Assembly (NCBI GenBank): GCA_009780315.1
Contig: WRAH01000022.1
Location: forward strand, 1-45,068
Length of the DNA: 45,068 nt
Reading direction: 5' to 3'
DNA from: Defluviitaleaceae bacterium
Lineage (GTDB): Bacteria > Bacillota > Clostridia > Lachnospirales > WQUN01
Part shown: one piece after another, positions 11,043 through 36,868 of the stretch
How positions within the stretch are numbered: the first letter of the stretch is position 1
Layout: every line of letters starts with the position of its first letter
Position numbers and translations under genes: made by a program
The notes under the pieces: generated by a model
Told to the model about the DNA's origin: nothing
The model's input: only the letters and a program-made list of their open reading frames with translations
The model's database searches: none

Positions 11043-11077
11043 AAGAAATCCCCCATCCTAAGAAAATGTCTACATGT

Positions 11078-11106
11078 ATAATATCGTACAAAAGAATAAA
11101 TTGCAA
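11078..11106 (-). promoter_or_regulatory. Promoter of the RCC1/SLH surface-protein gene
   Basis: On the minus strand, TTGCAA (11106-11101) and TATTAT (11083-11078) are separated by 17 bp, about 36 bp from the start codon. It lies back to back with the cold-shock gene promoter, only 5 bp away. Confidence 0.6.
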
Positions 11107-11111
11107 AAGGA

Positions 11112-11141
11112 TTGACAATATCTTGGAGTACGTGGTATAAT
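11112..11141 (+). promoter_or_regulatory. Strong sigma-A promoter of the cold-shock gene
   Basis: Consensus TTGACA (11112-11117) and consensus TATAAT (11136-11141) are separated by 18 bp. The predicted leader of about 70 nt contains two small hairpins (CGTCC/GGACG at 11156-11171 and CCGG/CCGG near 11189-11204) before 'taggagg'. Long structured leaders are typical of csp genes. Confidence 0.8.
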
Positions 11142-11220
11142 TTGCAACGTAACTCGTCCACATAAGGACGCCCCTTATTTTTAAAGTCCGGCTTATATAC
11201 CGGGTAGGAGGATTAGCTTC

Positions 11221-11421
11221 ATGAAAACAGGCACAGTAAAATGGTTCAATGCCGAAAAAGGATACGGGTTTATCTCTATCCAAGGCGAAGATGATGTATT
11301 CGTACATTTCTCCGCTATCCAAACCGAAGGCTTTAAAACCCTTGAAGAGGGTCAAGAAGTTCAGTTTGAAGTAGTACAAGGTGCAAAAGGCCCACAAGCC
11401 GCTAACGTTAGCCGCGCCTAG
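11221..11421 (+). CDS. Cold-shock protein (CspA family)
   Basis: A 66-residue single cold-shock domain, the standard family length. RNP1 ('KGYGFISI') and RNP2 ('VFVHFSAI') are both present; these bind single-stranded RNA and DNA. The family melts RNA secondary structure and acts as antiterminator or translation helper after a temperature drop. The start follows 'taggagg' at a good distance. The gene has a consensus promoter, a structured leader and an unusual structured 3' region before its terminator, so it appears to be a highly expressed single-gene transcript. Which csp paralogue it is cannot be told. Confidence 0.96.
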
Positions 11422-11426
11422 TTCTA

Positions 11427-11515
11427 GGTTTGGATGAAGCTCTGTCAATCTACACCGATATGAAATATAGCAGTATGCATTGACAGTAACAAAGATTCAT
11501 CGAATAACCGAAACC
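11427..11515 (+). ncRNA. Structured 3' region of the csp transcript (candidate RNA element)
   Basis: Three nested complementary pairs lie between the csp stop and its terminator: GGTTT (11427-11431) with AAACC (11511-11515), GATGAA (11433-11438) with TTCATC (11496-11501), and CTGTCAAT (11442-11449) with ATTGACAG (11479-11486). The 3'-side internal loops are about 9 nt each and the apical loop 29 nt. The order and spacing suit a long bulged stem. It could be a stability element or a 3'-derived small RNA, and it resembles no named family I recognise. Confidence 0.45.
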
Positions 11516-11519
11516 TTTT

Positions 11520-11554
11520 AATGCCTCTTCTGTTTAACGGAAGAGGCATTTTTT
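11520..11554 (+). terminator. Intrinsic terminator of the csp transcript
   Basis: An 11-bp GC-containing stem (11520-11530 with 11540-11550) with a 9-nt loop runs into a T-run. It ends about 130 bases after the csp stop, so the structured 3' region is included in the transcript. Confidence 0.9.
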
Positions 11555-11584
11555 GAGAATACTGTAAGTGGAGAGGAAGTTTAT

Positions 11585-12205
11585 ATGACACCACGGTTTA
11601 TTGTGCTGGAGGGTTTGGACGGCAGTGGAAAATCTACACAATCAAGAAAACTTGCAAAAAAACTTAGTGATTTAAAAATCCCCAATTTTCACACATGTCA
11701 GCCCAGCCAAGGTTCTGTGGGAAAACAGGCGCGGGCAGTCACTAGGGGGAAATTCTTTTTAGAAGATGAAACCCTTGCATTACTTTTTGCCGCAGACAGA
11801 TATCAACATTATCATGAAGAGATTGCCCCAAGACTTGATAGGGGTGATTATGTGATTTGCGACCGATACTATTATTCAAACATAGCCTATCAAGGCAAAA
11901 ACCCTGCGGCAATGGAGCGTGTGATTGCATATAATCAAGCTGTCATGACTGCGCCGATTAGACGACCAGATATTATTTTTTTCCTTGATATTCCTCCCTC
12001 TGAATGTATGTGCAGGATAACCTCCAGACGCTCAAAAGTCAGTATTTATGAAACATTAACCCGTTTAGAGCAAATGCGTGAACGGTATTTTGCGGCATTT
12101 GAACGCTTGAAAGCGATTGACAACGTAGTGATTATTGATGCTGTAGGCAAATCTTCAAATCAAGTATTTGCTAAAATTTGGTCATGTTTAAAAATTGATG
12201 AATAA
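11585..12205 (+). CDS. tmk: Thymidylate kinase
   Basis: The product is a 206-residue cytosolic kinase that phosphorylates dTMP to dTDP for DNA synthesis. The P-loop 'EGLDGSGKST' lies at about residues 9-18, the substrate-binding 'CDRYYYSNIAYQG' near 98, and an Arg-containing lid segment ('TSRRSKVSIYE') near 148. Length and motif order match the family. The ATG at 11585 has 'ggagagg' 9 bases upstream. The holB gene that often follows tmk is not next; a CwlD-like amidase comes instead, beyond a hairpin. Confidence 0.93.
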   Translation: MTPRFIVLEGLDGSGKSTQSRKLAKKLSDLKIPNFHTCQPSQGSVGKQARAVTRGKFFLEDETLALLFAADRYQHYHEEIAPRLDRGDYVICDRYYYSNIAYQGKNPAAMERVIAYNQAVMTAPIRRPDIIFFLDIPPSECMCRITSRRSKVSIYETLTRLEQMRERYFAAFERLKAIDNVVIIDAVGKSSNQVFAKIWSCLKIDE

Positions 12206-12212
12206 AAAAATC

Positions 12213-12260
12213 CCGCTTTGTACAACATAGTCATTGACTATAAGTAAAAGGCGGTTTTTT
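12213..12260 (+). terminator. Two-tier hairpin between tmk and the amidase gene
   Basis: An outer stem CCGCTTT (12213-12219) pairs with AAGGCGG (12248-12254), with one wobble, and encloses a near-perfect inner palindrome (12227-12241). Six T residues follow, so it can act as tmk terminator. The same 3' arm, AAGGCGG, is the only Shine-Dalgarno candidate for the amidase ATG at 12263, so pairing would also hide that site. Confidence 0.55.
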
Positions 12261-12262
12261 AT

Positions 12263-12961
12263 ATGGATGTATTAAGAATTACAATAAAAATTGCACTGCT
12301 GACATTGCTTGCAATTTGCACAAATGATACAAAAGTTGAAGCAGCTGCCCCAATGCCTCTTTCTAATCGTGTCATTGTTTTAGATGCAGGGCATGGAGGT
12401 TGGGACCCGGGCATGGTACAAAACAAAGTTGAAGAAAAACATATCAATCTAAGTATCTCCCAAAAATTACAAACTTTCTTAGAGCAAGGTGGCGCAACAG
12501 TCATTATCACCCGTTTAGATGATTCTGACTTGGCATCAAATAAATCTGGCGACATGCATGTACGGCGTGTTATTGCCAACGCTAGCCATGCAGATATTTT
12601 TGTTAGCATACACCAAAATGCATTTGCCAGTAAAAAAGTGCATGGTGCCCAAGCATTTTATTTTGATGAATCAGGTAATAGTCAAAGACTTGCCACCGCC
12701 ATACAAGGTCGCTTGCGTGAATTTGCAGACCCTGGTAACAAATTTAAAGCCAAGTCAAACGACAATTACTTTGTACTCAAACAAACAGAAATGCCTGCCG
12801 TCTTGGTAGAATGCGGATTCTTAACCAACCCTGGCGAACGTAGTCGCTTAATCGATGATGCTTACCAAGAAAAAATCGCATGGAGTATCTATTTGGGCAT
12901 TATTGATTACTTTCACACCCCAGTAGATATACCGCCTGCCGAAACAGAAAACGCTGGTTGA
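12263..12961 (+). CDS. cwlD: N-acetylmuramoyl-L-alanine amidase, CwlD-like (spore cortex)
   Basis: A 232-residue Amidase_3 enzyme. An N-terminal hydrophobic export segment ends around 'VEAAAP'. Zinc and catalytic positions are visible: His in 'LDAGHGGWDPG' (about 41-50), Glu in 'VEEKHINLS', His in 'SIHQNAF' (about 115) and Glu in 'VECGFLTN' (about 181). Size, the 'EKHINLS' motif and lack of wall-binding repeats fit CwlD, which strips peptides from muramic acid so that PdaA can make cortex muramic-delta-lactam. A PdaA-like gene is in this same window. The specific CwlD assignment is an inference; a vegetative amidase is possible. Confidence 0.85.
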   Translation: MDVLRITIKIALLTLLAICTNDTKVEAAAPMPLSNRVIVLDAGHGGWDPGMVQNKVEEKHINLSISQKLQTFLEQGGATVIITRLDDSDLASNKSGDMHVRRVIANASHADIFVSIHQNAFASKKVHGAQAFYFDESGNSQRLATAIQGRLREFADPGNKFKAKSNDNYFVLKQTEMPAVLVECGFLTNPGERSRLIDDAYQEKIAWSIYLGIIDYFHTPVDIPPAETENAG

Positions 12962-23768: not shown

Positions 23769-23773
23769 AAATA

Positions 23774-23807
23774 AAAAAAGCTGTCTTTATGAGACAGCTT
23801 TTTTTTA
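23774..23807 (+). terminator. Intrinsic terminator of glgC-glgD
   Basis: A stem AAAGCTGTCT/AGACAGCTTT, extended by A-T pairs, with a 5-nt loop is followed by eight or more T residues. It ends the glg operon. Confidence 0.9.
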
Positions 23808-23951: not shown

Positions 23952-24635
23952 GTGAGCAAGTACATAATGGAAGGCAAAGGTATCAAGCGGGCGTTTCCTG
24001 TAGGTGGAGGGCAGTTTTGGGCGTTAAAAGGGCTTGATTTAACCATTGCTGAAAATAAACTAACTATTTTAAAAGGCCGCTCTGGCAGTGGAAAAACGAC
24101 ACTGATGAACGCTCTGGGGGCGTTAGATTATCCAACAGAAGGAGACATACTTTTTTCAGGCACTTCAATTACAAAGCTTTCATCAAAAAAACGTGACCTT
24201 TTGCGCCGTCGTGACATAGGGTTTATTTTTCAATCTGTGGCACTGGTTAGTATGATGAGTGCCTATGAAAATGTAGAATTTATCCTGCGTCTTAGTGGTG
24301 CGTTCCTAGGGGAACGAAAAGCGCGGGCAGAGTATTGTCTTGAAAAAGTTGGGCTTGCGCCAAGAATGCACCACATGCCGCCCCAACTTTCTGGGGGAGA
24401 GCAACAGCGTGTGGCCATTGCCCGTGCGATTGCTCACAGACCCAAAATTATTTTTGCAGACGAACCCACGGCAGAACTTGACACCAATACAGCTTTGCAA
24501 GTTGTAAAAATTTTCAAAGATTTAATCGCTTACGAAGGCGCAACAATAGTCATGACAACCCATGACCCTGACCTGATGGAAGTGGCAGACAAGGTTTATG
24601 AATTGGCAGATGGAGAGATAGTTAATGCATTCTGA
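23952..24635 (+). CDS. ABC exporter ATPase 1 (MacB/LolD type)
   Basis: A 227-residue ATP-binding subunit. Walker A 'GRSGSGKTT' is at about 43, the Q-loop reads 'FIFQSVALV', the signature is 'LSGGEQQRVAIAR', Walker B 'IIFADEPTAELDT' and the H-loop 'TTHDPD'. All catalytic elements are intact. The sequence belongs to the MacB/LolD/FtsE class that drives FtsX-type permeases. The GTG start is fixed by a perfect 'aggagg' 8 bases upstream. It opens a seven-gene run in which every junction overlaps or abuts; its 3' end overlaps the next gene by 11 bases. Confidence 0.92.
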   Translation: MSKYIMEGKGIKRAFPVGGGQFWALKGLDLTIAENKLTILKGRSGSGKTTLMNALGALDYPTEGDILFSGTSITKLSSKKRDLLRRRDIGFIFQSVALVSMMSAYENVEFILRLSGAFLGERKARAEYCLEKVGLAPRMHHMPPQLSGGEQQRVAIARAIAHRPKIIFADEPTAELDTNTALQVVKIFKDLIAYEGATIVMTTHDPDLMEVADKVYELADGEIVNAF

Positions 24636-25554
24636 ACATACGGATTATGACCTGCAAAAGCATGTTATCGTAGCAGATGGCTTAGTCAAAATTTATAAAA
24701 CATCAGAAATAGAAGTACTGGCACTGCAAGGGCTTGACCTTGTTGTAGAGCGCGGTGAAGTCATGGCAATCATCGGAAACAGCGGAAGTGGAAAGTCTAC
24801 ACTTTTAAATATGATTGGTGGTTTGGACAAACCATCCGCAGGTAAGCTTTTTGTTGACGGTAAAGATTTGTTTAAAATGCGTGAAAAAGATTTGGTGCGT
24901 TACAAAACATCCACAGTAGGTTTTATATGGCAAAATAACGCCCGCAATCTTATCCCTTACTTGACCGCCTTAGAAAATGTAATGCTGCCAATGCAATTAA
25001 ACAATAAAAGTCAGGTCAAAGATAAAAAATCCCGCGCTATGGATTTGTTGGAGCTTACAGGCATGGGCAAACGGGCAAAGCACCGTCTCAATCAACTGTC
25101 TGGTGGTGAGCAGCAACGTGTAGCCATTGCTCTGTCTCTTGCAAATTATCCTGCCGTCCTTCTTGCAGATGAACCTACAGGCAGTGTGGACACACGTACA
25201 ACTGACACGATTTTAGACATGTTCCGCACAGTGAATAAGGAACTTGGCACAACCATAGTCATCGTAACCCATGACCGAGACATTGCAAAAAAAGTACAAC
25301 GTGTTGTAGCCATTCGTGATGGCAAAACTTCCAGTGAATTTATAATGAATAACTATGCAGAACGGCTTGCAGGTATGGGCGACTTTGTAGGGGAGCAAAT
25401 AGAGTATGCTGTATTAGACCGTGCAGGGCGCATTCAAATTCCCCGTAATTTATTAGATAAGATGAACCTTGACGGTAATCGCCTGATAATTAGCATAGAT
25501 GAAGATAATCGGGTAATACTCACGCCGCCAGAGAAAAAAGGAGGGCTAACCTAG
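24625..25554 (+). CDS. ABC exporter ATPase 2 fused to an AbrB/SpoVT-like domain
   Basis: The product has 309 residues. Residues ~15-235 are a second complete MacB-type ATPase (Walker A 'GNSGSGKST', signature 'LSGGEQQRVAIALSL', Walker B 'VLLADEPTGSVDT', 'VTHDRD'). The last ~50 residues ('YAVLDRAGRIQIPRNLLDKM', then 'IISIDEDNRVILTPP') look like an AbrB/SpoVT swapped-hairpin domain. In other proteins that fold binds DNA and dimerises. Here it could pair the two ATPases or regulate the operon; the role is inferred. The ATG lies inside the end of ATPase 1 behind 'ggagag'. Confidence 0.9.
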   Translation: MHSEHTDYDLQKHVIVADGLVKIYKTSEIEVLALQGLDLVVERGEVMAIIGNSGSGKSTLLNMIGGLDKPSAGKLFVDGKDLFKMREKDLVRYKTSTVGFIWQNNARNLIPYLTALENVMLPMQLNNKSQVKDKKSRAMDLLELTGMGKRAKHRLNQLSGGEQQRVAIALSLANYPAVLLADEPTGSVDTRTTDTILDMFRTVNKELGTTIVIVTHDRDIAKKVQRVVAIRDGKTSSEFIMNNYAERLAGMGDFVGEQIEYAVLDRAGRIQIPRNLLDKMNLDGNRLIISIDEDNRVILTPPEKKGGLT

Positions 25555-27803
25555 TGACTAAAAAATTTTTCTTATGTACAGTGGCGACCATTGTAATGAT
25601 GGTGTTTGCCCCTAGTATTGTATGGGCTGCCCAGCAATCCCGTACTTTACAGGTCGGCAATGTTTATGAATTTGTGGGTATAGACCCACGTGTTATTTCT
25701 CATGTACGTGTGACAGGCACAGGGCGGTATCAAATTGTTGCACGGGATACGGACGGTGAAGTGACACGATTTGGTTATGCGGCAGGTCAATTTTCTATCA
25801 ATGGTGCAGGCGCAGTAGAAATTTCTCCCCTTGAACCGCTGACCATATCCTTTGATACTGCTCGGCTACAGCTTACATCACGTTCAGGGTTTGCCTTGCA
25901 TGAAATAGCAGTGGGCAATCATGGGGTGGTTATTGAAAATATCCACAGTGAAGCATTGCATGTACGTACCACAAACTTGACTTATTTGGATTTTGTCACC
26001 ACCAATCGTATAGGCACAGTGGTTCATTTTGAGCGAGGAATAAGGTCGCCTCAATTAAATATAACGGCTGGCGGGTCTTTGACTGTTTCTTCTGAAGAAG
26101 GAACTTCTATTTATTTCCCCTCACGCTGGCATGGTCGTCAATTGAATGTATACGCACACACAACCCCTGCATTGGTTGAAATTGCAATGCTTCCAAACCA
26201 TTCACAAATGATAGAGGTTTTGACAGATGTTACGTTTGTACCGCGTTTTTACACAGGTGATGAATATAGTCCGTTTGCTTATGAATACATCATTCGCGGG
26301 CGGGACGGGCATGTGATAAGCCATGATGAAGTTGAAGGATTTGAACTGAGATTGACAGCACGGCAAGCTATGACAATCACCCCTCTTTCATATGCAATAA
26401 TGTACTTCCCCTATCATTGGCTGGAATATTTGGATATAGATGATAGCGCAGATACTCCAGCTTACTTGGTCTTGCCTTTTGGCATGTCTATGGAAATAAC
26501 CAATGACGACATGGTGCGCCCTCACACCGTTTTCTTGCGTTGTGTAAATGATGAAAATGTATTTGGTTTTGAATATGTCATGCTGTATGATGATGAAATT
26601 ACTTTTAACAAAGTGGAAGATGTGATTACCCCTCAAGCGTCTGTTGTTGTACCTGCTGGGGCAATCGTGACCATTACGTCAACACAGGTAGATATTGCCG
26701 TAAGTATTCCAGACATATCTGCCATGGATGTTACACAAGTCTCAACTGCTCCGTTGCACAGGCAAGTCATGACACAAGGTACATCTGTTTTTGCGCAAAA
26801 TAGCGGTGATGATTCTGCCACATTTTTATTTTATGCCCAAGCGGATGATGTGACGCTGGATTACGTTTTATATGACAATGACGGTGATATTTTATCTTTT
26901 GGACGTATCAATGCTGGGGATTATTTTACCCTAGAAGAAGGGCAGTCGGCACGGTTTACAAGCCCTGATGATTCAGCCACTTTAGTTTTTCCTCGCACGC
27001 TGGATGGTTTGACCGTTGAAACAAGCAGTGAAACTGCACTGTACCGCCACATGCTTTCTTATGGCAATATTTTGCAGATTGACAACATTGACCGTAACCG
27101 CTACAATCGCCCGTTTTTAATTCAAAACGAAGCCATCAACGGTGACTTTTACTATGATTTTGTAATGGGAACCACTGCAACCCAAATGGTGGTGTTGGAT
27201 TACGGTGTTGGTACTTCTGAACAATATCTCTTGCCTGCCACCCGCCGTATGACACTCATGCCACAAGAAGGGGTAGCACTTTCTATTGCTTTCCCATCAT
27301 CTTGGAATAACACATACCTTAGTATACAAGAAACCACAGAAGCGCCTCTTCACCGTATTACTTTAACCCCTGGGCGCACTGTAACCCTTCACAATAATAC
27401 CCGAAACAATTTTGTACTTTCAAACAATAGCCATGACACCCATGCAGGTTTTCATACCTATGGTTCTGGTGAATGGGTGCGCCATTATGAAAATGTGCTT
27501 GTAAACCATGGTGTAATGATTAACCCTGGTGATTTCTTCCCCCCTGGCTGGTCAGAGATTTTGGGGCAGTATGTAGAGTTTGAAGACTTGCTAAGACCGA
27601 TACCTGTCCAGCCACGATATGAACGTGTGGCGCGGTATGAGTATGTTCCTCATCCTGCCGTCAACATTAGAGCCGATGTACCCCAATCAGGTGATATTTT
27701 CCTTCCCGCTGGTGAAAGGCTTAGAATCACCGCCGCCCTTGGCGAAGATTTGGAAATTATCATGCCAAGAAGTTGGGCGCGTCAGCTGAGGTTATTGTCA
27801 TGA
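25554..27803 (+). CDS. Secreted modular repeat protein of the ABC operon (unknown family)
   Basis: The product has 749 residues. A signal peptide (K-K, 'FFLCTVATIVMMVFAPSIVWA') is followed by no further membrane span, no lipobox and no wall-sorting signal. The mature part is built from about seven divergent beta-rich modules near residues 98, 186, 283, 382, 477, 578 and 735, spaced mostly 90-100 residues. Each module begins with a strand such as 'IYFPSRW', 'LVFPRTL' or 'IAFPSSW', and many continue with '[AT]PLHR...G' and an Asn-rich turn. I do not recognise the family. The GTG shares one base with the ATPase 2 stop, and the end overlaps the next gene by 4. It is probably an extracellular partner of the transporter. 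Confidence 0.8.
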   Translation: MTKKFFLCTVATIVMMVFAPSIVWAAQQSRTLQVGNVYEFVGIDPRVISHVRVTGTGRYQIVARDTDGEVTRFGYAAGQFSINGAGAVEISPLEPLTISFDTARLQLTSRSGFALHEIAVGNHGVVIENIHSEALHVRTTNLTYLDFVTTNRIGTVVHFERGIRSPQLNITAGGSLTVSSEEGTSIYFPSRWHGRQLNVYAHTTPALVEIAMLPNHSQMIEVLTDVTFVPRFYTGDEYSPFAYEYIIRGRDGHVISHDEVEGFELRLTARQAMTITPLSYAIMYFPYHWLEYLDIDDSADTPAYLVLPFGMSMEITNDDMVRPHTVFLRCVNDENVFGFEYVMLYDDEITFNKVEDVITPQASVVVPAGAIVTITSTQVDIAVSIPDISAMDVTQVSTAPLHRQVMTQGTSVFAQNSGDDSATFLFYAQADDVTLDYVLYDNDGDILSFGRINAGDYFTLEEGQSARFTSPDDSATLVFPRTLDGLTVETSSETALYRHMLSYGNILQIDNIDRNRYNRPFLIQNEAINGDFYYDFVMGTTATQMVVLDYGVGTSEQYLLPATRRMTLMPQEGVALSIAFPSSWNNTYLSIQETTEAPLHRITLTPGRTVTLHNNTRNNFVLSNNSHDTHAGFHTYGSGEWVRHYENVLVNHGVMINPGDFFPPGWSEILGQYVEFEDLLRPIPVQPRYERVARYEYVPHPAVNIRADVPQSGDIFLPAGERLRITAALGEDLEIIMPRSWARQLRLLS

Positions 27804-28828
27804 AAAAACTGATTTTATTAGGGGTATTTTTACTCTTGGTGACAGGTTGTGCGGCAATGCCTGTAGTACAAGATTTGCCACCATTGCCTGTGTTTGCGCC
27901 GCCTGCCCCTGTGCAATGGCGCACTGCCACAGTTCAACGCACAGATGTTATTTTATATTCAACCATTAGACCTGTGTTTGCCGCAGAAACACGGGAAACA
28001 TTACATTTCCCCCAAGGAGGGCTTGAAATTGAAGGTATTTTTATTTCAGAGTGGGATGAAGTGGTTGAGGGGCAAATTATTGCTTCCTTAAAAAATCCTG
28101 AACTGGAAGAAACCCTAGAAGAACTGCGGATATTACAAGAAAGATTTGCATTAGAGTTACAACAGTTAAACGACCGTCACCATCATAGTTTGCGCATGGC
28201 AGAACTGACAGAAACCCCTATAGATGATACAGGGTACAATATCCAGCGGGAAGTGCTGCAAGAGCGGTTGCATTTACTGAGCCTTGAACATGCGTATTTT
28301 TCAGCAGAATTTGAAGACTTAATTGTACGCGCACCCATAAACGGTATAGCCAGAAATGTAATGAGCATGGTAGAGGGGCAACGCTCCAATACCGCAGGTG
28401 TTGTGGCAATTATTATGGACATGAATGATGCATTTTTTAGGATTCGTCACCAACAAGCCGCCCATGTTGAACCTGGGCAGATATTTGAAATGGCTTTGGA
28501 TAATTTTGATTTTACCTTTGAAGTGCGGGCAGTGATTCCTGAATCTGTCACGTCATTGAATCCTGCATGGGTTTGGTTTGAACCTGTGGAAGACTATACC
28601 GCGTTGTTTGATACAAATACTGTGGGTAGTATCACTTTTATTTTCGAGGAAGCTTTTGACGTAATTGCAGTAAGTCACCATGCCATTCACCGTGCTGGCG
28701 ACCAGTATTTTGTTTTTGTGTTGGAAGATGGTGTACGCAGTGTGCGGTATGTTGAGCTTGGACTAAGGACACCCTTTCTTATAGAAGTTACAAAGGGCTT
28801 GGACGCAGGGGAGCTGGTGGTCATATGA
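27800..28828 (+). CDS. Lipoprotein membrane-fusion (adaptor) protein 1
   Basis: The product has 342 residues. The signal peptide ends in a lipobox ('LLVTGC'), so it is anchored outside the membrane. Two half-barrel biotinyl-lipoyl-like segments ('GGLEIEGIFISEWDEVVEGQ', and 'LIVRAPINGIARNVMSMVEG') flank a helical hairpin (about 95-165). A C-terminal 'YVELGLRTPFLIEV' beta domain closes it, the layout of MacA/HlyD adaptors. The ATG at 27800 is chosen over TTG 27773 because it starts the signal peptide and overlaps the previous stop as ATGA. It is the first of three consecutive, clearly different adaptors. Confidence 0.87.
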   Translation: MKKLILLGVFLLLVTGCAAMPVVQDLPPLPVFAPPAPVQWRTATVQRTDVILYSTIRPVFAAETRETLHFPQGGLEIEGIFISEWDEVVEGQIIASLKNPELEETLEELRILQERFALELQQLNDRHHHSLRMAELTETPIDDTGYNIQREVLQERLHLLSLEHAYFSAEFEDLIVRAPINGIARNVMSMVEGQRSNTAGVVAIIMDMNDAFFRIRHQQAAHVEPGQIFEMALDNFDFTFEVRAVIPESVTSLNPAWVWFEPVEDYTALFDTNTVGSITFIFEEAFDVIAVSHHAIHRAGDQYFVFVLEDGVRSVRYVELGLRTPFLIEVTKGLDAGELVVI

Positions 28829-29940
28829 TGAAACTGGTCATGATTGGTGCAATACTTGTCATGGTGCTTGCTGGTTGTACATCCACTGCCATTGAAGTCA
28901 CAGATGGCCCGCCTTTGCTTGAGCCTATTGGGTTTGCCGCCGCAACCATTGATACTGCCCAAGTGACATGGGGTACAGTTGCGCAACTGGTTATAGGGCA
29001 TGGCGTTGTGCGGGTAGAATCTGTACCCTTATCTTTTGAAGTCAGCGGGCAGATTGCAAATGTTTATGTTTTCCCAGGGGCGTTTGTACAAGCAGGTCAA
29101 CTGCTTGCGCGGCTTGACACAGGTGATATTGACGAAGAAATCACACAGCAAGTACAACATATTGCAGACCTGAACCGTGCCGCCGTCATTGCTGACGAAA
29201 TTTCTGCACTGGAAATAGCCCTCAAATGGCTTGATTATGAAGATGCAATGCACCGTGCTGCTCAAACATTTGAAACACAAGCGATACAAAATGCTGAAAA
29301 TATTTTAGTGGAGATAGAATATATGGAACTTGCAAATATTCAATCTGCCCAAATGCGGGAACTAGATATCGCCAACGCCAATCGTCATTTAAACGCCCTT
29401 CGCCTTCAAATTGAAGGAACAGAACTTCGTGCGCCGTCTGCTGGCACAATTACACATCTTGCAAGTCTTGAGCATGTCAACGCAAATCAAATATTTATGT
29501 ATATCAATCATGAAACCCGATTATTTGTTGAAGATGTGAGTGAAGATTTACCTCTGGAAGTCAGGACAGCACCCCGCATTGAAGCCCGCATAAACGGGCT
29601 GACTTATCAACTGACCTATACCCCAATGACACTGCAAGAAGTGGCAATTGCCCAACAGCGAAGATACCCTATGCGCTGGCGTTTTGACATCACGCCTCAG
29701 CCAGACGGCACTTTACCGCCCTTGGGTGCATATGCTTCCATTGTATATTCAGTGGAGTTTCAAGAAAATGCCCTTCGTGTGCCGTCCAATGCAATGCGAA
29801 GTATCGTATTTGATGATTTTGTATATCTTATGATTGACGGAGAACGGATTTTAACCCCCGTCCGTACAGGCGCAGTTTCAGATACGTTTGTAGAAATTCT
29901 GGAAGGGCTAGAGGAAGGGGATGTTGTGCTTGTTCGGTAA
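28825..29940 (+). CDS. Lipoprotein membrane-fusion (adaptor) protein 2
   Basis: The product has 371 residues, with lipobox 'MVLAGC'. Lipoyl halves are 'VSGQIANVYVFPGAFVQAGQ' and 'LRAPSAGTITHLASLEHV', with an α-helical hairpin between (about 110-200). A beta-barrel region and a terminal 'GAVSDTFVEILEGLEEGDVV' segment are typical of RND/ABC adaptors. It overlaps adaptor 1 by 4 bases and adaptor 3 by 20. Of the three it is closest to the classic MacA layout. Confidence 0.9.
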   Translation: MMKLVMIGAILVMVLAGCTSTAIEVTDGPPLLEPIGFAAATIDTAQVTWGTVAQLVIGHGVVRVESVPLSFEVSGQIANVYVFPGAFVQAGQLLARLDTGDIDEEITQQVQHIADLNRAAVIADEISALEIALKWLDYEDAMHRAAQTFETQAIQNAENILVEIEYMELANIQSAQMRELDIANANRHLNALRLQIEGTELRAPSAGTITHLASLEHVNANQIFMYINHETRLFVEDVSEDLPLEVRTAPRIEARINGLTYQLTYTPMTLQEVAIAQQRRYPMRWRFDITPQPDGTLPPLGAYASIVYSVEFQENALRVPSNAMRSIVFDDFVYLMIDGERILTPVRTGAVSDTFVEILEGLEEGDVVLVR

Positions 29941-31117
29941 CAACCTGTACAAAAAGCTGGGTATACTTATATTTTTTTTACTTTTCATGGCCGCGTGTAC
30001 CGATGGCGATAATAGCGAGGTAAGCACCATGGCAACTGCCATTGAAGCGGGCGTTCTCATGGACTTTGAGCAAGCGGCAAGGGTGGTCAACTTACTGCAA
30101 ATTGCACCAGTAAACATAGGCACATTGTACGAAGAACGTAGTATGGACTTGAATATAGGTTTTCTTGTACAAAGAAATTTAATGTTTGAAGGGCAAGAAA
30201 GACAGTTTGATGGATTTCATGTCACCAATGGACAGTTTGTACAGGCTGGGGATATTCTTGCGTCTGCTACTTTTGATGGGTCAGAGCTGTTTCTTGCACA
30301 ACATCGCAATGCACAAAACGACTTGTATCGTTTTGAAACAGACTTTCTGGCAGAACAAAATCGACGGCAAGTGGAAATAAGTGAAATGCAAATAGCATTT
30401 GACCGCGCCCCTGCAAACGAGCGGGAAAGGCTTTTATTAAACCTTACCCTTCAAGAATTAAGATACGAGCAATTTTTATCTGATACCAGACGGCAAATGG
30501 ATGATATGCGCCAAAGCATACAAGAAACAACCACATTGCTTGCCACAGAATATATGACCGCACCCTTTGACGGGGTGGTAATGAATCTTGCGGCAATAGG
30601 CATTGGAAGCCCAGTGGAAGGGCGCAATATGGTTGTGCTTGCTGAAGCTGAATCTGTTGTGTTGACAGTCAGGACACCTCATATGCACATTATAAGATAT
30701 GGTGATGTGTTTTCCGCAACCCTTGCCAATACAACATTTGATGTGATAGTGGTAAGTGACCCATTTGCAACAGGGCATAGGCAGGGCAATGCAGATTTCC
30801 TCCTCAAGCCCCTTGAGCCAAATACACTAACACAAATTATACAAACCCTTGACAATGACTGGCGCGCACTGATGGAACACAGAAATAGAGAAGTCAATCT
30901 CATTTGGAATATGTTTGGTGAAAGCATTATTCTTCATCGTGGGGCAATTCAGCAATCATCAGGACGGACGATATACGAAAGTATGCCCTATGTCACCATA
31001 TATGACGATGGTGTATTTAGACAGCGTTTTATTACCCTTGGGCCTTATGGTACTTCGCAGGTTGCAACGGTGGTTTCTGGGCTGGAAGCAGGGCAGAAGG
31101 TGGTGGGGCATAGGTGA
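29921..31117 (+). CDS. Lipoprotein membrane-fusion (adaptor) protein 3
   Basis: The product has 398 residues, with lipobox 'LFMAAC'. The first lipoyl half is 'FHVTNGQFVQAGDILASATF', a long charged helical hairpin follows (about 125-200), and the second half is 'MTAPFDGVVMNLAAIGIGSP'. The C-terminal 'FITLGPYGTSQVATVVSGLE' is the adaptor end domain. The ATG lies within adaptor 2, behind 'gaggaagggg', and the stop overlaps the permease GTG by 4 bases. It is the most divergent of the three adaptors. Confidence 0.85.
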   Translation: MLCLFGNNLYKKLGILIFFLLFMAACTDGDNSEVSTMATAIEAGVLMDFEQAARVVNLLQIAPVNIGTLYEERSMDLNIGFLVQRNLMFEGQERQFDGFHVTNGQFVQAGDILASATFDGSELFLAQHRNAQNDLYRFETDFLAEQNRRQVEISEMQIAFDRAPANERERLLLNLTLQELRYEQFLSDTRRQMDDMRQSIQETTTLLATEYMTAPFDGVVMNLAAIGIGSPVEGRNMVVLAEAESVVLTVRTPHMHIIRYGDVFSATLANTTFDVIVVSDPFATGHRQGNADFLLKPLEPNTLTQIIQTLDNDWRALMEHRNREVNLIWNMFGESIILHRGAIQQSSGRTIYESMPYVTIYDDGVFRQRFITLGPYGTSQVATVVSGLEAGQKVVGHR

Positions 31118-33993
31118 CAAGCTTTCTCTTTCGTAAAATGTGGAAAAATAGATGGCTAATGCTTTGCTTGCTTGTGGGAAATGTTTTGCTGATAGGCGTA
31201 GCATCCTCAACACCAATGTATGCCATGGCATCCATCACCCGAATGATGCACCAGTCCATGAGCTTGCGCCAAGCCACAGAAGGAATTTACCCTGTATTTA
31301 GCCAATTGAGATATGCATTTAACAACGCAGAAGACCCTGTGGGTATGTATGAAGAAACGCGGGATATTATTTTATATGAAATGCTGGATACTCTTGGGAT
31401 ACCTGTATCACAAACGGTGAGAACTTATAGCATGACAAGCTGGTCAATCCAGCCTATGTCTGCACGGGCAACCACGCCCCGTACAATAAACCTGCTGGGC
31501 ATACAAGACTTGACACAGAATACAAGGCTATTACATGGACGTATGCCTGCCAATCATTATTCAAATGTTATTGAAGCCCTTGCCATGGACGTTGCAATGT
31601 TTCGTAATGACTTGCTTCTTGATGAGCTGATACGCACAAGCGAGCCTGATATATTTATCCGCGTTGTAGGGCTTATAGAATTACCGCCAGAATCCCTGCC
31701 ATTTTGGGCAGTGGTTGACCCTGACTTTACAGAAAATCTAATCATTTGCGAAACAGTTGTACAAGATATGTTGACTGCAAATTACCGTGATGAATTTCGT
31801 ATTGCTGCCACATGGGCAAATATTCACGATTTCTTTGGCATGACAGGGGGAAATATCACACGGTATCAAAGGGGTATCAACGACCTTACACCCCGCTTCA
31901 TGGGCATGTCTATGTTCAGCTTCGAGCAAAACTATTATGAAGTGTTGCGTGAGCATATTGCACGCACGGCAGAGTTTAGTATTACCCTTATTATGCTTCA
32001 AGTCCCTTTATATGCTTTGCTTGGGTTTTTCATTTATGTTATCAGCCGAAAAATTTTACAGCAGGAGCAAAATGATATTTCTGTGTTAAAAAGCCGCGGC
32101 GCAAGCCGTAGGCAGATTTTTAATATTTATGTAGGGCAAGGGCTTGTGATGGGCGGAATGGCTTTTCCCTTTGGGGTGGCTTTGGGCATGGCAATTTGTC
32201 ATTTGCTTGGGGCTTCAAGAGGATTCTTGCAAATTATGGAGCGTTCCCCTGTTGTTGTGGAACTGTCTGCACAAGCACTGCTTTTTGGTGGGGCAGCCGC
32301 TTTATTCTCCTTCTTTGCTATGATTTTGCCAGTCATAGGATTTTCAAAAGTAGGTATCGTTGAGCATAAACGGGGTAAATCCGGCAAACCAAAAAAATCC
32401 CTTTGGCAACGATATTTCTTGGATATCATTTGCTTGGGGGCTTCTCTATATAGTATTTACAATTTTAATATTCAGCAAACACTGGCAACAGGTACAAGTG
32501 ATTTTGTTGACCCTACTATGTTTATTGCGTCATCTTTATTTATCATTGGATTTGGATTGTTTTGCTTGCGGGTTTTTCCGTATATTGTAAAACTTATATT
32601 TTATGTCGGGCGCAAATATATGCCCATTGGGTTGTACACAGCCATGACAAAAGTTGCTCGCTCTATGGGTGAAGAACAATTTATTATGATTTTCCTTGTT
32701 TTTACTATGGCAATAGGGATTTTTAGTGCCCAAGCGGCACGTACAATTAACTTAAATGCAGAACATGAAATACGCTATCTTGGCGGAACCAATGTGGTTA
32801 TACAAGAGTTTTGGAGTGATAATACCCTACAAATTGTCAGTGAAATTGCAACAGAAATGGTTTTTGTAGAGCCAAACTTTGAACGCTTTACACATTTTGA
32901 TGCAGTGGATTCAATCACCCGTGTAATGATTGAACCGCAAGTTGCCAATATCCGCCCTCCAGGCACACCTTTTTTTGTACCTCGTCCAGTAGCGCAAGTT
33001 CATGCAGAAATTCGCCGTGCCGGCGAAGGGGCAATTCGAGAATCTACAACCCTTATGGCAATTGAGCCGCAACACTTTGGTGAGACAATTTGGTTTAGAG
33101 ATGACTTTTTGCCTATTCACATTAACTACTTTTTAAATGTGCTGTCACAAGTGCCTAATGGCGTGCTGGTTTCATATAATTTTCGTGAACAAGGCGCGTC
33201 TGTTGGGGATACCCTGCGACTGTATCATGACCATATTATTGCCACAGATACGGTTACAACGGTGATAGAAAATGACGTTGGCATCATGACAATCGTTGGT
33301 TTTATTGACCGTTGGCCAACATTTATTCCATCAGAAAGGCATGAAACCCAAGAAGGTACAATTTTTGAAATCGAGCATAGTCTTGTTGTGGGCAATTTTA
33401 ATTATTTACAAAACCATTGGGGGATATGGCCCTATGAAATATGGTTGCGTACCAATACAGACTCAATTCAGTTTTTGCACGATTTTATAGAAGCAGAAAC
33501 CTTGCACCCGGAAATTATCCTCCATGATACAGCCAATGAGATTGCCCAAGGGTTGCTAGACCCTCTTGTACAAGGCACAAATGGGGTGCTTACGGTCAAC
33601 TTCATTATTACGCTTATCGTGTGTTTTGCAGGATTTTTGCTATACTGGATACTGTCCATACGGGAGCGTGTGTTACAATTTGGTATTTTTCGTGCCATGG
33701 GTATGAGCTTGCAAAGTATCATTGGCTTACTGATTAACGAGCAAATACTCATTACAATCACCGCACTCATTATTGGTGCAGTGGTTGGCGAAGTGAGTGC
33801 CCGCCTTTATGTACCCATGCTTCAAATGGCGTATACCCAACAAATAATCCCACTGCTTGTCATTATGGAAGCGCGGGATTATGCTGGTTTGTTTATGGTC
33901 ATGGGTGCAATGATACTGATTTGTCTTGTTGTGCTTATCACTTTTATTTCAAAAATACGCATAGACCAAGCGTTGAAACTTGGGGAGGATTAA
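31114..33993 (+). CDS. Large FtsX/MacB-type ABC permease with two FtsX halves
   Basis: The product has 959 residues and about ten membrane helices. Helix 1 lies at about 15-35, followed by a ~250-residue extracellular domain, helices 2-7 (about 285-545), a second ~270-residue extracellular domain and helices 8-10 (about 828-945). FtsX core signatures occur twice: 'EQNDISVLKSRGASRRQIF' and 'RERVLQFGIFRAMGMSLQSI'. One chain therefore supplies both permease halves and fits two different ATPases. Members of this class move lipids, peptides or drugs, or transmit mechanical force rather than transport; the substrate is unknown. The start GTG overlaps the adaptor 3 stop. A terminator follows about 90 bases later. 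Confidence 0.9.
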   Translation: MTSFLFRKMWKNRWLMLCLLVGNVLLIGVASSTPMYAMASITRMMHQSMSLRQATEGIYPVFSQLRYAFNNAEDPVGMYEETRDIILYEMLDTLGIPVSQTVRTYSMTSWSIQPMSARATTPRTINLLGIQDLTQNTRLLHGRMPANHYSNVIEALAMDVAMFRNDLLLDELIRTSEPDIFIRVVGLIELPPESLPFWAVVDPDFTENLIICETVVQDMLTANYRDEFRIAATWANIHDFFGMTGGNITRYQRGINDLTPRFMGMSMFSFEQNYYEVLREHIARTAEFSITLIMLQVPLYALLGFFIYVISRKILQQEQNDISVLKSRGASRRQIFNIYVGQGLVMGGMAFPFGVALGMAICHLLGASRGFLQIMERSPVVVELSAQALLFGGAAALFSFFAMILPVIGFSKVGIVEHKRGKSGKPKKSLWQRYFLDIICLGASLYSIYNFNIQQTLATGTSDFVDPTMFIASSLFIIGFGLFCLRVFPYIVKLIFYVGRKYMPIGLYTAMTKVARSMGEEQFIMIFLVFTMAIGIFSAQAARTINLNAEHEIRYLGGTNVVIQEFWSDNTLQIVSEIATEMVFVEPNFERFTHFDAVDSITRVMIEPQVANIRPPGTPFFVPRPVAQVHAEIRRAGEGAIRESTTLMAIEPQHFGETIWFRDDFLPIHINYFLNVLSQVPNGVLVSYNFREQGASVGDTLRLYHDHIIATDTVTTVIENDVGIMTIVGFIDRWPTFIPSERHETQEGTIFEIEHSLVVGNFNYLQNHWGIWPYEIWLRTNTDSIQFLHDFIEAETLHPEIILHDTANEIAQGLLDPLVQGTNGVLTVNFIITLIVCFAGFLLYWILSIRERVLQFGIFRAMGMSLQSIIGLLINEQILITITALIIGAVVGEVSARLYVPMLQMAYTQQIIPLLVIMEARDYAGLFMVMGAMILICLVVLITFISKIRIDQALKLGED

Positions 33994-34080: not shown

Positions 34081-34120
34081 AAAAATACTACAATGATTTA
34101 ATTCATTGTAGTATTTTTTT
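34081..34120. terminator. Bidirectional terminator after the ABC operon
   Basis: A 13-bp perfect stem (34084-34096 with 34103-34115) with a 6-nt loop is flanked by A-run and T-run. It serves both the ABC operon and the convergent surface-protein cluster. Confidence 0.9.
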
Positions 34121-34469
34121 AATCTGAAAGTACATCAATAAATTTATTTCCTAAAAGTATTTGAGTATTTACAACGGTGTTAAGCATTTCAGTAACACTT
34201 TTATTTGCCATGAGAATATCTTTAATAGTAGGCGGCGCATGTTCACTTGTAGGAAGTGTGCCTAAAATATATTGTATCTTTTCGCCTTCTGTATTGAGTA
34301 TATGACTAAGTGCTAAACCATTCATTGCAATAGAAGATATAATCTGATTCGTTGCTTGTTGCCGTGTTAAAATAAACTTTAGTAATACGCATATATTATT
34401 GCTTTTGAACGTAGAACCATTAGATGTGACAATGGCGTGCGTGCAAAGTGTAGCTGAACGACTATACAA
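34119..34469 (-). CDS. Small helical protein of the surface cluster (unknown)
   Basis: About 116 residues if it starts at TTG 34469, which overlaps the stop of the gene before it by 8 bases. The frame is open to 34520 and no good ribosome-binding site is seen, so the start is uncertain. The C-terminal half ('ATNQIISSIAMNGLALSHIL', 'NTEGEKIQYILG') resembles a helical motif seen in clostridial surface or spore-associated proteins (from memory; not verified). It ends in the bidirectional terminator region. Likely co-expressed with the DUF11-like and beta-helix genes. Function not known. Confidence 0.5.
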   Translation of the reverse strand: MYSRSATLCTHAIVTSNGSTFKSNNICVLLKFILTRQQATNQIISSIAMNGLALSHILNTEGEKIQYILGTLPTSEHAPPTIKDILMANKSVTEMLNTVVNTQILLGNKFIDVLSD

Positions 34470-34863
34470 CTTTTTGCACTTGAAAAGTAAGTGTTGTTTC
34501 GCCTGCAATAGCAATATCATCTAATGTTACAATCAGTGTGCCTGTCAAGACATCAAACGTATAGTCGGTATCAAGCACAAGTGGTGTGCCGTTAGCAATA
34601 ACACTGTTGTCAACCAGTGTGACAAGCGTTGGGTCTAAAACGGTGGTGACTACTGGTGCGGTGTATGGATATTCACCAGAGACGTTTGCAATAACCACTG
34701 TATAGGTTAGTACGCCATCTGCCCAAACTGCTTGGTCAGTGGTCATTGTAAGTGAAAGCCCATCAACTAGGATTACAGATACAAGTGAAGAACTTAATGA
34801 TAAACTTTGACCATCATAGCTACCGAGAGAACCCGCCTGACTTGAAAGTACTGTATCAGCCAT
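34462..34863 (-). CDS. Single DUF11-like beta-sandwich protein without signal peptide
   Basis: The product has 133 residues. The sequence reads like one DUF11/conserved-repeat domain: 'WADGVLTYTVVIANVSG', 'TTVLDPTLVTLVDNSV' and a closing 'ETTLTFQVQKVV'. Such domains normally occur in tandem in large secreted surface proteins; here one stands alone and has no signal peptide. The ATG at 34863 is preferred because 'agggggg' lies 8 bases upstream; 34869 is also possible. A minus-strand hairpin lies in the 94-base gap behind the beta-helix gene. Spore-coat or exosporium location is possible, but only inferred. Confidence 0.65.
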   Translation of the reverse strand: MADTVLSSQAGSLGSYDGQSLSLSSSLVSVILVDGLSLTMTTDQAVWADGVLTYTVVIANVSGEYPYTAPVVTTVLDPTLVTLVDNSVIANGTPLVLDTDYTFDVLTGTLIVTLDDIAIAGETTLTFQVQKVV

Positions 34864-34957
34864 TTTCATTTCCCCCCTTATTTTTTTATTATGACATGCC
34901 TTAGAGCATGTACTATAAGATATTCTAAGGCGGGGTAAAATGTTACACTTTTATGCT

Positions 34958-36868
34958 TTACTCCACATCCAGTTGCCAATTGATGTTTGCGGCATATACT
35001 TCATTGGCAAAAAAGGTTATATTTTCTCCATTCAGTAAGATTCCTTGGGTATCGTTCCAAGTGATGATTGTGTCCCCGCTACTGGTGCCATCATTCGTAA
35101 AAACAATGACAGGGTCACTGCCAAGGGTATCAATGTGGTCATTTTCATCTACATAAATCAGTGCGTCAGGCAGGGTATGCAAAGGATTGTCTTGGCTGGT
35201 CATGTCTGAATAAAGGGTTGCAGAAATTTCCCATGGGGTAGGGTATACCCGTGTATCATGCACAATAACCTGCTGCCAAATCACATCTCTTCCATACAAA
35301 AGTTTATTGGGGACAACCAGCTTAACCATTACAAAAGGCAAATCACTATCAGGCGTTTCAAGGCTTATCTCTCCTCCATCAATAGCCGCGTTGACGATTG
35401 TACCTGTCAAAAACGGAGAATGGGCTGTGATGGTTACAGTGGTATCTATCTCAATCGTTGCAGAGGGTACAATGCTAAAATTACCGCTGGAATCCGCAGA
35501 AGCCGTGTCTTCATAAGATGTGCCGCCAGAGTCATATTGAACTTGAATGGCTGCATTTGCTATCGTTGTGCCACTTATGGGATATTGACCATCTACAATG
35601 GGGTTCACCGTAAGCAGTTTCCCTAGGGATAAAACTTGGTCAGTTTCTGGGTGAAAATTTGTAAGGGCAGGAAGATTGCTTATTTCTTGAGTTGTAAAGT
35701 TATTGGAAGTGATTGACCAGACATTGGATGTACACGTGCCTGCAATGGAAAGGGGTGTGTAATCGGTAGCTATTGGATTATTGTATCTATCCCATTGAAA
35801 ATCTGGTATATCATTGATATCCCCTGGATTTAATGTATTTGCATATACCCAAAGATTCATTTGCTCTGCGGATATTGTGAATGTGAGTGGATACCCATTA
35901 GCATTTATTGCTTGGGCTTTATTGCTGTAGAGTACAAAACTTTGTGGATTTGTAATGGAAAGGATTGCAGTTGCTAAAAAATAAATAGGTGAAAACGCGG
36001 TAAGGGTGCTTTGAATAAATACATTGGCATTATTGCCTACAGAAATATTGCCATCAACCACAATCGGCGATGAATAAGCGGCAGTTGCACTTTCATCGGG
36101 TATGATGGTTAGTGATGCATTATCCCCTATGGTTAGCGAGTTTATATAATGTCCATTATTAAGAAACATACCAAGGACTGGCTGAAAGAAAAGGCTTGCC
36201 CCATCCCCAATGGTGATGTTTGGATGAAGGTCTGTATAGAAGCAATAACTTGTGGTTGTAATGGTGACATTTGCATTTTCGTTGATGATAAATGTAGGGT
36301 TGCTCCCTGAACGAAACCAAAATGTAGCATTTGAGCCGTTATTTGCTTGATGGTTAATCATCGTGTTTCCGCCTATGGTCAAATAACTTACCTCAGCCAT
36401 TTCATTGAGCGGACACGCTGTGGACGCGGCACTGGTAAATGTGCAATCGGTCAAATTGTTGTAGCCATAGGCATTATAAATAAACTGGGGCCCAGTATAA
36501 GTTACATTGATATAGTTGAGTGTCACTCCGCTTATGCCGTCTGGAACATAGATGATACCATAGTAATTTCGCCCGATAATATTCATATTTTGCAAAGTAA
36601 TCACAGGCATATTGCTGTTGGAGACGTTGATTGTATCATTGCTGGATGAACTATTCATATCTGTATAGGTTTGAACGGTTCCGGTGCCGTCCAAAGGGTA
36701 AGTTCCGTCAATGACAAGATTGGTCTTGTCGGTAGCAATACTTACGCCTTGGGTGAGTGTCATATCGTTAACAAGGTAAATGGTCGTATAAGTGTTAGTT
36801 CCTGACAGTATGCTTCGCAGTTCACTTTCTGTTTCTACTGCAACAGTCACGGTGTCAATAATAATCAT
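34958..36868 (-). CDS. Pectate-lyase-like beta-helix surface protein without signal peptide
   Basis: The product has 636 residues. From about 20 to 330 it shows repeated short strands with Asn/Gly turns ('TLQNMNIIGRNYYGIIYV', 'LTIGDNASLTIIPDES', 'ISVGNNANVFIQSTL'), typical of parallel beta-helix adhesins. About 400-500 forms an Ig-like part ('IANAAIQVQYDSGG', 'SSGNFSIVPSATIE'). The C-terminal ~120 residues ('NKLLYGRDVIWQQV'...'ANINWQLDVE') look like a WxL-type wall-binding end, a tentative reading. No signal peptide is seen: it begins 'MIIIDTVTVAVETESEL'. The ribosome-binding site 'agggagg' supports the start. It heads the three-gene minus-strand cluster. Confidence 0.7.
   Translation of the reverse strand: MIIIDTVTVAVETESELRSILSGTNTYTTIYLVNDMTLTQGVSIATDKTNLVIDGTYPLDGTGTVQTYTDMNSSSSNDTINVSNSNMPVITLQNMNIIGRNYYGIIYVPDGISGVTLNYINVTYTGPQFIYNAYGYNNLTDCTFTSAASTACPLNEMAEVSYLTIGGNTMINHQANNGSNATFWFRSGSNPTFIINENANVTITTTSYCFYTDLHPNITIGDGASLFFQPVLGMFLNNGHYINSLTIGDNASLTIIPDESATAAYSSPIVVDGNISVGNNANVFIQSTLTAFSPIYFLATAILSITNPQSFVLYSNKAQAINANGYPLTFTISAEQMNLWVYANTLNPGDINDIPDFQWDRYNNPIATDYTPLSIAGTCTSNVWSITSNNFTTQEISNLPALTNFHPETDQVLSLGKLLTVNPIVDGQYPISGTTIANAAIQVQYDSGGTSYEDTASADSSGNFSIVPSATIEIDTTVTITAHSPFLTGTIVNAAIDGGEISLETPDSDLPFVMVKLVVPNKLLYGRDVIWQQVIVHDTRVYPTPWEISATLYSDMTSQDNPLHTLPDALIYVDENDHIDTLGSDPVIVFTNDGTSSGDTIITWNDTQGILLNGENITFFANEVYAANINWQLDVE

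Follow-up and report, generated by a model that had tools for sequence, protein, structure and literature searches.

A conserved three-adaptor ABC operon of Clostridia, most likely for a mechanotransmission exporter of Type VII with its adaptors in a heteromeric ring

Here, we describe a conserved operon for an ATP-binding cassette (ABC) machine with three different lipoprotein adaptors, located at positions 23952..33993 of a 45,068-nucleotide stretch of DNA from a Defluviitaleaceae bacterium (contig WRAH01000022.1 of assembly GCA_009780315.1; the whole stretch is referred to as the window). Its seven plus-strand open reading frames (ORFs) encode, in the order given by a first-pass annotation of the window, two ATPases (A1, and A2 with an AbrB-like part), a secreted repeat protein (REP), three MacA-like lipoproteins (LP1, LP2 and LP3) and a permease of 959 residues (PERM). 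Most likely the system is an exporter that works by Type VII mechanotransmission and whose adaptors form a heteromeric ring, where the ring, the substrate and the role of REP are parts that we infer. The three adaptor domains were found in all 45 related loci of the same clade that were not cut by a contig end.

Of the 37 genomes of the family, 14 had a near full-length relative of PERM (E 1e-150 or better), counting the window's own, as did 1 of 24 further genomes of the order. With a limit of E 1e-30, 48 of 392 genomes of the order had a match. A PERM profile recognised, at 1e-60 or better, 57 genomes out of 391 from the class and 8 out of 299 from the phylum, these eight being the window's own genome, one of the same order and six from outside the class. 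By script, 88 loci were examined, of which two have an additional permease gene; the loci were chosen to spread over families, with 45 stretches from the first searches, 40 from the class and phylum searches, and L039 and L040 taken separately. Two main forms of the locus were seen. The three-adaptor form, usually ordered LP1-LP2-LP3-PERM-A1-A2, occurs with its fused variants in six families (f1, f5, f8, f48, f49 and f87). The one-adaptor form has a single adaptor followed by PERM, with A1 and A2 after, around or not adjacent to them, and in relatives farther away the permease mostly has a single adaptor next to it. The first-pass annotation had suggested looking for the gene order across Clostridia; because the core of three adaptors, permease and two ATPases recurs in six families, an order peculiar to this genome is rejected and the arrangement is not due to chance. 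The window itself has the rarer version, in which the ATPases lie upstream (as in L041, L043 and L044), while they lie downstream in the congener L045.

The 45 uncut loci comprise 37 with separate adaptor genes, among them L066 with LP2 in two frames, and 8 in which LP2 and LP3 are fused into one protein of 725–821 residues. An apparent loss of LP2 in L048, L049, L054 and L080 was rejected, as the LP2 frame is open in each; LP2 is present in the contig-cut L042 as well. Among the relatives of the fused adaptor some are labelled Lachnospiraceae, a family that belongs, like Defluviitaleaceae, to the Lachnospirales of the Clostridia. It is chiefly because all 45 uncut loci keep three adaptor domains that each adaptor would seem to have a job of its own.

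A single, deep origin of the three adaptors is indicated by trees of both the permease and the adaptor domains. In a permease tree of 89 rows, made without L162 (permease in two frames), one clade with a support of 100 in the Shimodaira–Hasegawa-like approximate likelihood ratio test (SH-aLRT) took in all 33 three-adaptor rows, 8 fused and 5 contig-cut rows and 4 rows in which LP2 had been misread as missing. A careful tree of 47 chosen rows, with L072 (which has adaptors on either side of its permease) and L149_b (a second permease) treated as single-adaptor rows, likewise united the 25 multi-adaptor rows (bootstrap/SH-aLRT 100/100). In the adaptor-domain tree of 104 rows, LP1 formed a clade (99), as did LP2 with the N-terminal half of the fused proteins (99) and LP3 with the C-terminal half (96), LP2 and LP3 being sisters (96). 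The corresponding careful tree of 58 rows gave 100/96 for LP1, 100/99 for LP2 and 95/82 for LP3, with the warning that some long LP3 branches meet. Since LP1, LP2 and LP3 each form one clade, the triplication is, as judged from the sequences, ancient and single, and its direction is on the same grounds from one adaptor to three, because the outgroup rows of other classes have one adaptor where readable. The earlier description of three non-identical adaptors thus stands, in that they are distinct, ancient and retained; the recent duplication that would have spoken against it is rejected by the permease and adaptor trees.

Seven fused proteins were placed in the tree, with the N-terminal half among LP2 and the C-terminal half among LP3, although profile scores of the latter half were weak and mixed and the match listed for the L073 C-half was LP2. 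Fusion is found in two lineages and counts as two changes on the permease tree, a pattern that could reflect two changes or one fusion with later splits. Another family holds double systems, LP-PERM-A1-A2-LP-LP in L149, L153 and L154, followed in L149 and L153 by a second PERM, and these are a different route to multiple adaptors. The rows L134, L148, L149, L153 and L154, classed as single, have one adaptor next to the permease and more adaptor genes nearby. Three genomes have two adaptor-permease pairs with ATPases beside one only (G427, L140/L141; G650, L131/L145; G533, L135/L156), as if one A1-A2 pair served two permeases.

LP1 (27800..28828, lipobox LLLVTGC), LP2 (28825..29940, lipobox VLAGC) and LP3 (29921..31117, lipobox FMAAC), all on the plus strand, are assigned to the MacA-type adaptors, a kind that combines a membrane anchor with beta-barrel, lipoyl and alpha-hairpin domains. 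MacA is the best solved-structure match for all three adaptor profiles, each matching it in the PDB almost end to end (1e-23 to 1e-31), and the adaptor-family matches of LP1, LP2 and LP3 themselves all lay below curated cut-offs. BLASTP within the window aligned LP1 with LP2 at 22% over 384 columns and with LP3 at 25% over 216, and returned no LP2-LP3 alignment longer than 20 residues; orthologues are only 15–52% identical to the window's adaptors. With a narrow pattern a lipobox was recognised in 29 of 32 LP1, 30 of 32 LP2, 29 of 32 LP3 and 33 of 34 single adaptors. Median hairpin spans were 102.5 residues for LP1, 116 for LP2, 105 for LP3 and 77.5 for single adaptors. In the window the spans, read off one alignment, were 91, 116 and 108 residues, an ordinary size in our judgement. 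A conduit of adaptors crossing the whole wall, as had been proposed, was not borne out.

The longest hairpins are those of LP2, which are more than 1.5 times as long as the LP2 median in 7 loci and measure 387–415 residues in L077–L079, the longest LP1 and LP3 hairpins having 156 (L056) and 198 residues (L132). The LP2 hairpin is greatly lengthened in L077 (9626-11665), L078, L079, L051, L062, L068 and L124, while LP1 and LP3 of the same operons are not, and hairpin tips rich in Pro, Ser and Glu were seen in LP2 of L051, L062, L077, L079 and L124. A structure model of a natural LP2-LP3 fusion (mean predicted local distance difference test score, pLDDT, 82.2; predicted template modelling score, pTM, 0.67) contained two adaptor modules with hairpins and lipoyl folds, the hairpin arms being about 45–48 and about 32 residues long. 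The structural matches shown for it span one adaptor or one domain, and the two-adaptor chain 6vej was not among the matches listed.

PERM (31114..33993, plus strand) has two FtsX stretches in Pfam and is predicted from its structure model to be a fused, two-halved permease of YbbP-like Type VII kind, with ten long helices, extracytoplasmic domains after helices 1 and 7 and a pseudo-two-fold arrangement. In a fold search with the model YbbP was the closest match, and the 39 matches at E 0.001 or better were all of MacB/FtsX type by their names. The best sequence-profile matches among solved structures were LolF and LolC, and the PERM halves match MacB. FtsX-type helices, large extracytoplasmic domains and separate LolD/MacB-type ATPases together place the system in the Type VII (MacB/FtsX) ABC superfamily. 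BceB is described with ten helices and a single large domain outside the cell, which follows helix 7 and precedes helix 8 (PMC5985334; this and the other papers are cited from those sections of each that were available), and the second large ectodomain, between helices 1 and 2, led us to reject a BceAB-type permease. The window's PERM is closer to that of genus-2 genomes (G026, 63%) than to that of the congener G001 (51%), and the ATPase-first order is common to the window, G026, G031 and G033; gene transfer or a misassigned genus are possible reasons for this affinity.

A1 (23952..24635, plus strand, 227 residues; ABC_tran 111 bits) and A2 (24625..25554, plus strand, 309 residues) both match ABC_tran, and in domain searches their nearest family was LolD, below its cut-off. 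They are 35% identical and are, as far as their sequences tell, distinct paralogues with intact motor motifs: in the first locus set the Walker A and Walker B patterns and the SGG signature were found in 37 of 37 A1 and 36 of 36 A2, and the H-loop pattern in 36 of 37 and 35 of 36. A1 has no tail. The AbrB part that had been assigned to A2 corresponds to a conserved C-terminal tail at about residues 265–304, though its MazE/AbrB match in the window lies just under the Pfam cut-off (23.4 against 24.7 bits). An AbrB-like tail was counted with a broad pattern in 64 of 64 distinct A2 genes against 1 of 63 A1 genes, the misses of a narrower pattern having been read by eye, and Pfam MazE_antitoxin was above its cut-off in 1 of 10 further A2 proteins, the sole one listed at E 1e-4. 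By sequence comparison the tail predates the triplication, since the one-adaptor form has it too.

All core parts are of known kinds. MacAB shares with the present system the MacA-type adaptor and the MacB-like permease halves, but is described with a single adaptor kind and with a MacB whose chain has four helices and a built-in ATPase and which cooperates with TolC (PMC5985334), as against three adaptor kinds and separate ATPases here. Spr0693-0695 of Streptococcus pneumoniae and YknWXYZ of Bacillus likewise combine a Gram-positive MacA-like adaptor with a separate ATPase and permease (PMC5768738, PMC5985334); they differ in having one adaptor, and the working form of Spr0694-0695 is a dimer that totals eight helices. 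The permease is most like that of YbbAP-TesA in Escherichia coli, which shares the ten helices, the placement of ectodomains behind helices 1 and 7 and the separate ATPase, but the available sections of the source describe an ATPase homodimer, the partner TesA and no adaptor of its own (PMC12646458), whereas the window has two different ATPase genes. TriABC-OpmH of Pseudomonas aeruginosa requires two different adaptors on one pump (PMC4338810), this being a resistance-nodulation-division (RND) pump with an outer-membrane channel and two adaptors rather than three. In Desulfitobacterium hafniense, DSY0927 is an ABC-linked Gram-positive adaptor made of two fused ones (PMC4338810, PMC4446572); it is set apart, by its description only, by halves of unlike types, one of them lacking a coiled coil. 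Neither a three-adaptor ABC system nor an exporter ATPase with an AbrB tail was found in the open-licence literature among the matches listed, and the same holds for the single origin of the three-adaptor form and for the combination of MacA-type adaptors, YbbP-like permease and AbrB-tailed ATPase. The first-pass remark that no such named system was apparent held for the three-adaptor form as far as searched, but not for its parts, which belong to named kinds, with two-adaptor and fused-adaptor systems already published.

We lean, with some reserve, towards a machine in which one mixed adaptor ring sits on the YbbP-like permease and two ATPases drive a hinge that would push substrate outward to the wall space. 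In Type VII transporters ATP-driven closure of the motor is described as coupled to motion of the outer domains (PMC12646458), and the hinge cycle proposed here would follow the relatives MacB, LolCDE and YbbAP. A1 and A2 would each power one half of PERM, and the A2 tail may pair two machines or act in control. AbrB-type domains usually dimerise. A ring of six adaptor subunits is suggested by MacA and by Spr0693, described as a MacA-like homohexamer whose hexameric tube docks on the transporter (PMC5768738). This ring would hold two copies each of LP1, LP2 and LP3, since a permease with two-fold (pseudo)symmetry would present a six-membered ring with three non-equivalent positions in each half, and LP2 and LP3 would sit side by side, to judge from their fusions. 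In one lineage REP would join as an outer partner, and our best guess at the substrate is something hydrophobic or lipid-linked that is drawn from the outer leaflet. A more specific version of this proposal, which we put forward tentatively, is a natural (LP1-LP2-LP3)2 heterohexamer in which each adaptor would be the specialist of one seat, giving a symmetry-matched ABC machine of monoderm cells with LP2 furthest out and REP recruited in one lineage; by analogy, TriA and TriB would occupy the two sorts of position that a three-fold RND pump offers. Of the asymmetric heteromeric machine proposed by the first-pass annotation, the heteromeric character is favoured by the distinct adaptors, the distinct ATPases with intact motifs and the fused two-halved permease.

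Several points weigh against a mixed-ring exporter. Stoichiometry, subunit contacts and transport itself are all steps that we infer, and the LP2-LP3 fusion model, by giving single-adaptor or single-domain matches, leaves the packing of neighbours to conjecture. The ATPases are not adjacent in 7 loci from 6 genomes, where an A2 orthologue lies elsewhere (in G028 as two contig-edge pieces only). No cargo gene was recognised nearby, as judged from the N- and C-termini of chosen neighbours at 32 loci, without a systematic search. A two-component system or a flotillin-like gene lies close to some of the loci, and signalling of the FtsEX or Bce kind is thus possible where we propose export. Such a role, with ectodomain motion acting through the adaptors on wall enzymes or sensors and no substrate moved, is improbable in our estimate. 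Response regulator-kinase pairs are common, and their frequency here, within about 2–10 kb in 8 of the first 48 loci, may be due to chance; neither neighbour cluster was seen in 40 of these 48 loci, although some are truncated. No wall hydrolase was recognised among the neighbour N-termini read, without a dedicated search, and FtsEX and BceAB are described without a MacA-type adaptor in the available sections of their sources.

It is equally unlikely that the adaptors never share a ring and instead form separate homohexamers, or trimers, which take turns on the same permease according to substrate or condition. The homohexamer of Spr0693, like that of MacA (PMC5768738), would fit this, as would the one-adaptor genomes G427, G533 and G650, with ATPases beside one of two pairs, where parts may be exchangeable. 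However, the LP2-LP3 fusion in two lineages fixes a 1:1 use, no adaptor was lost in the 45 uncut loci, and the tight gene overlaps would favour equal amounts. Extraction and hand-over of lipoproteins or lipids in the manner of LolCDE or YbbAP, with the adaptors as a slide to the wall, appears slightly less doubtful; it draws on the profile matches of PERM to LolF and LolC and on its closest fold, YbbP, which is said to extract hydrophobic compounds (PMC12646458), but a cell without an outer membrane has none to supply, and no LolA-like or TesA-like gene was noticed in the N-termini read beside the loci, though none was searched for. Ordinary redundancy, in which tandem duplicates were kept by chance, could be invoked because all three adaptors belong to one family; it is largely refuted, and very improbable, given the deep single origin and retention in 45 of 45 loci despite the low identity among orthologues.

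REP (25554..27803, plus strand, 749 residues) has a signal peptide by sequence and repeats of about 97 residues, as its self-matches are offset by near 97 residues and multiples thereof, the best scoring 30.8 against a maximum of 9.6 among 30 permutations. It had no Pfam match over cut-off, no NCBIfam match and no PDB match. A profile search listed 12 proteins, the window's own among them, some labelled Defluviitaleaceae or Firmicutes metagenome-assembled genomes. REP was found in 12 of 61 genomes, all of the window's family (in G017 as fragments only), and 11 of the 12 have the permease; it was not found in the other 49. It adjoins LP1 in 6 genomes of one family, lies apart from the operon in 5 and is partial in 1, while G009, G021 and G028 are permease genomes of the window's family without it. 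A core role of REP in the machine is therefore rejected. Within the 37 genomes of the family REP and permease are associated (Fisher p 4.6e-6, or 0.0018 without the 6 linked genomes), p values that are no more than guides, since the genomes are not independent of one another. REP thus tracks the machine even when unlinked, and may be an outer partner in one lineage rather than part of the core.

The junctions from A1 through PERM overlap by 11, 1, 4, 4, 20 and 4 bases when LP1 is started at ATG 27800, in agreement with the overlaps of 1–20 bases previously noted at every junction. This start is likelier, from the sequence, than the earliest possible one, TTG 27773, because it lies directly 5' of the signal peptide and gives an overlap of 4 rather than 31 bases. 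A terminator-like hairpin at 23773..23805 (plus strand), between the upstream gene and A1, sets the operon apart from that gene; it is a consensus match only, with 15 such sites against 10.5 expected. On the other side, genes for surface-type proteins adjoin the operon on the minus strand (34119-36868), where PF20585, an adhesive domain of pectate-lyase-like type, scored 34.9 bits and two short frames had no family match.

Among the neighbours of the first 48 loci no gene outside the core was general. The cluster dnaX-ybaB-recR recurs upstream in one other family, in up to 9 loci, and Pfam bore out its identity in L077. One genus has a flotillin-like gene upstream of LP1, which shares the strand of the operon in L046, L049 and L054 and is on the opposite strand in L052. 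This flotillin-like (Band_7) gene is accompanied upstream of the adaptors by a farther response regulator-kinase pair (L046:7554-9077; L049:7558-9042 and 11037-12892; L054).

The premise of a single-membrane cell was upheld in part. The window's own genome (95.6% complete) had no Omp85 match, in line with a single membrane, and two weak OEP/TolC-type matches, by reading one secreted coiled-coil protein and one RND-type adaptor lipoprotein. The former, on contig 36 (L188:8602-10050), is a TolC/OEP-like protein of 482 residues (31.4 bits against a cut-off of 22), and its gene is adjoined by that of a HlyD-like lipoprotein (L188:7282-8589). This TolC-like gene lies elsewhere in the genome with no known link to the operon, and its product probably sits in a monoderm.

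The role of adaptors in cells without an outer membrane and the reason for mixed-adaptor pumps are both described as open in the available sections of two reviews (PMC4338810, PMC5985334). A conserved machine whose adaptors diverged once, were all kept in the 45 uncut loci and became fused in two lineages offers defined parts for both questions. In a form common to many Clostridia, it is a natural system for asking what MacA-type adaptors do where there is no outer membrane.

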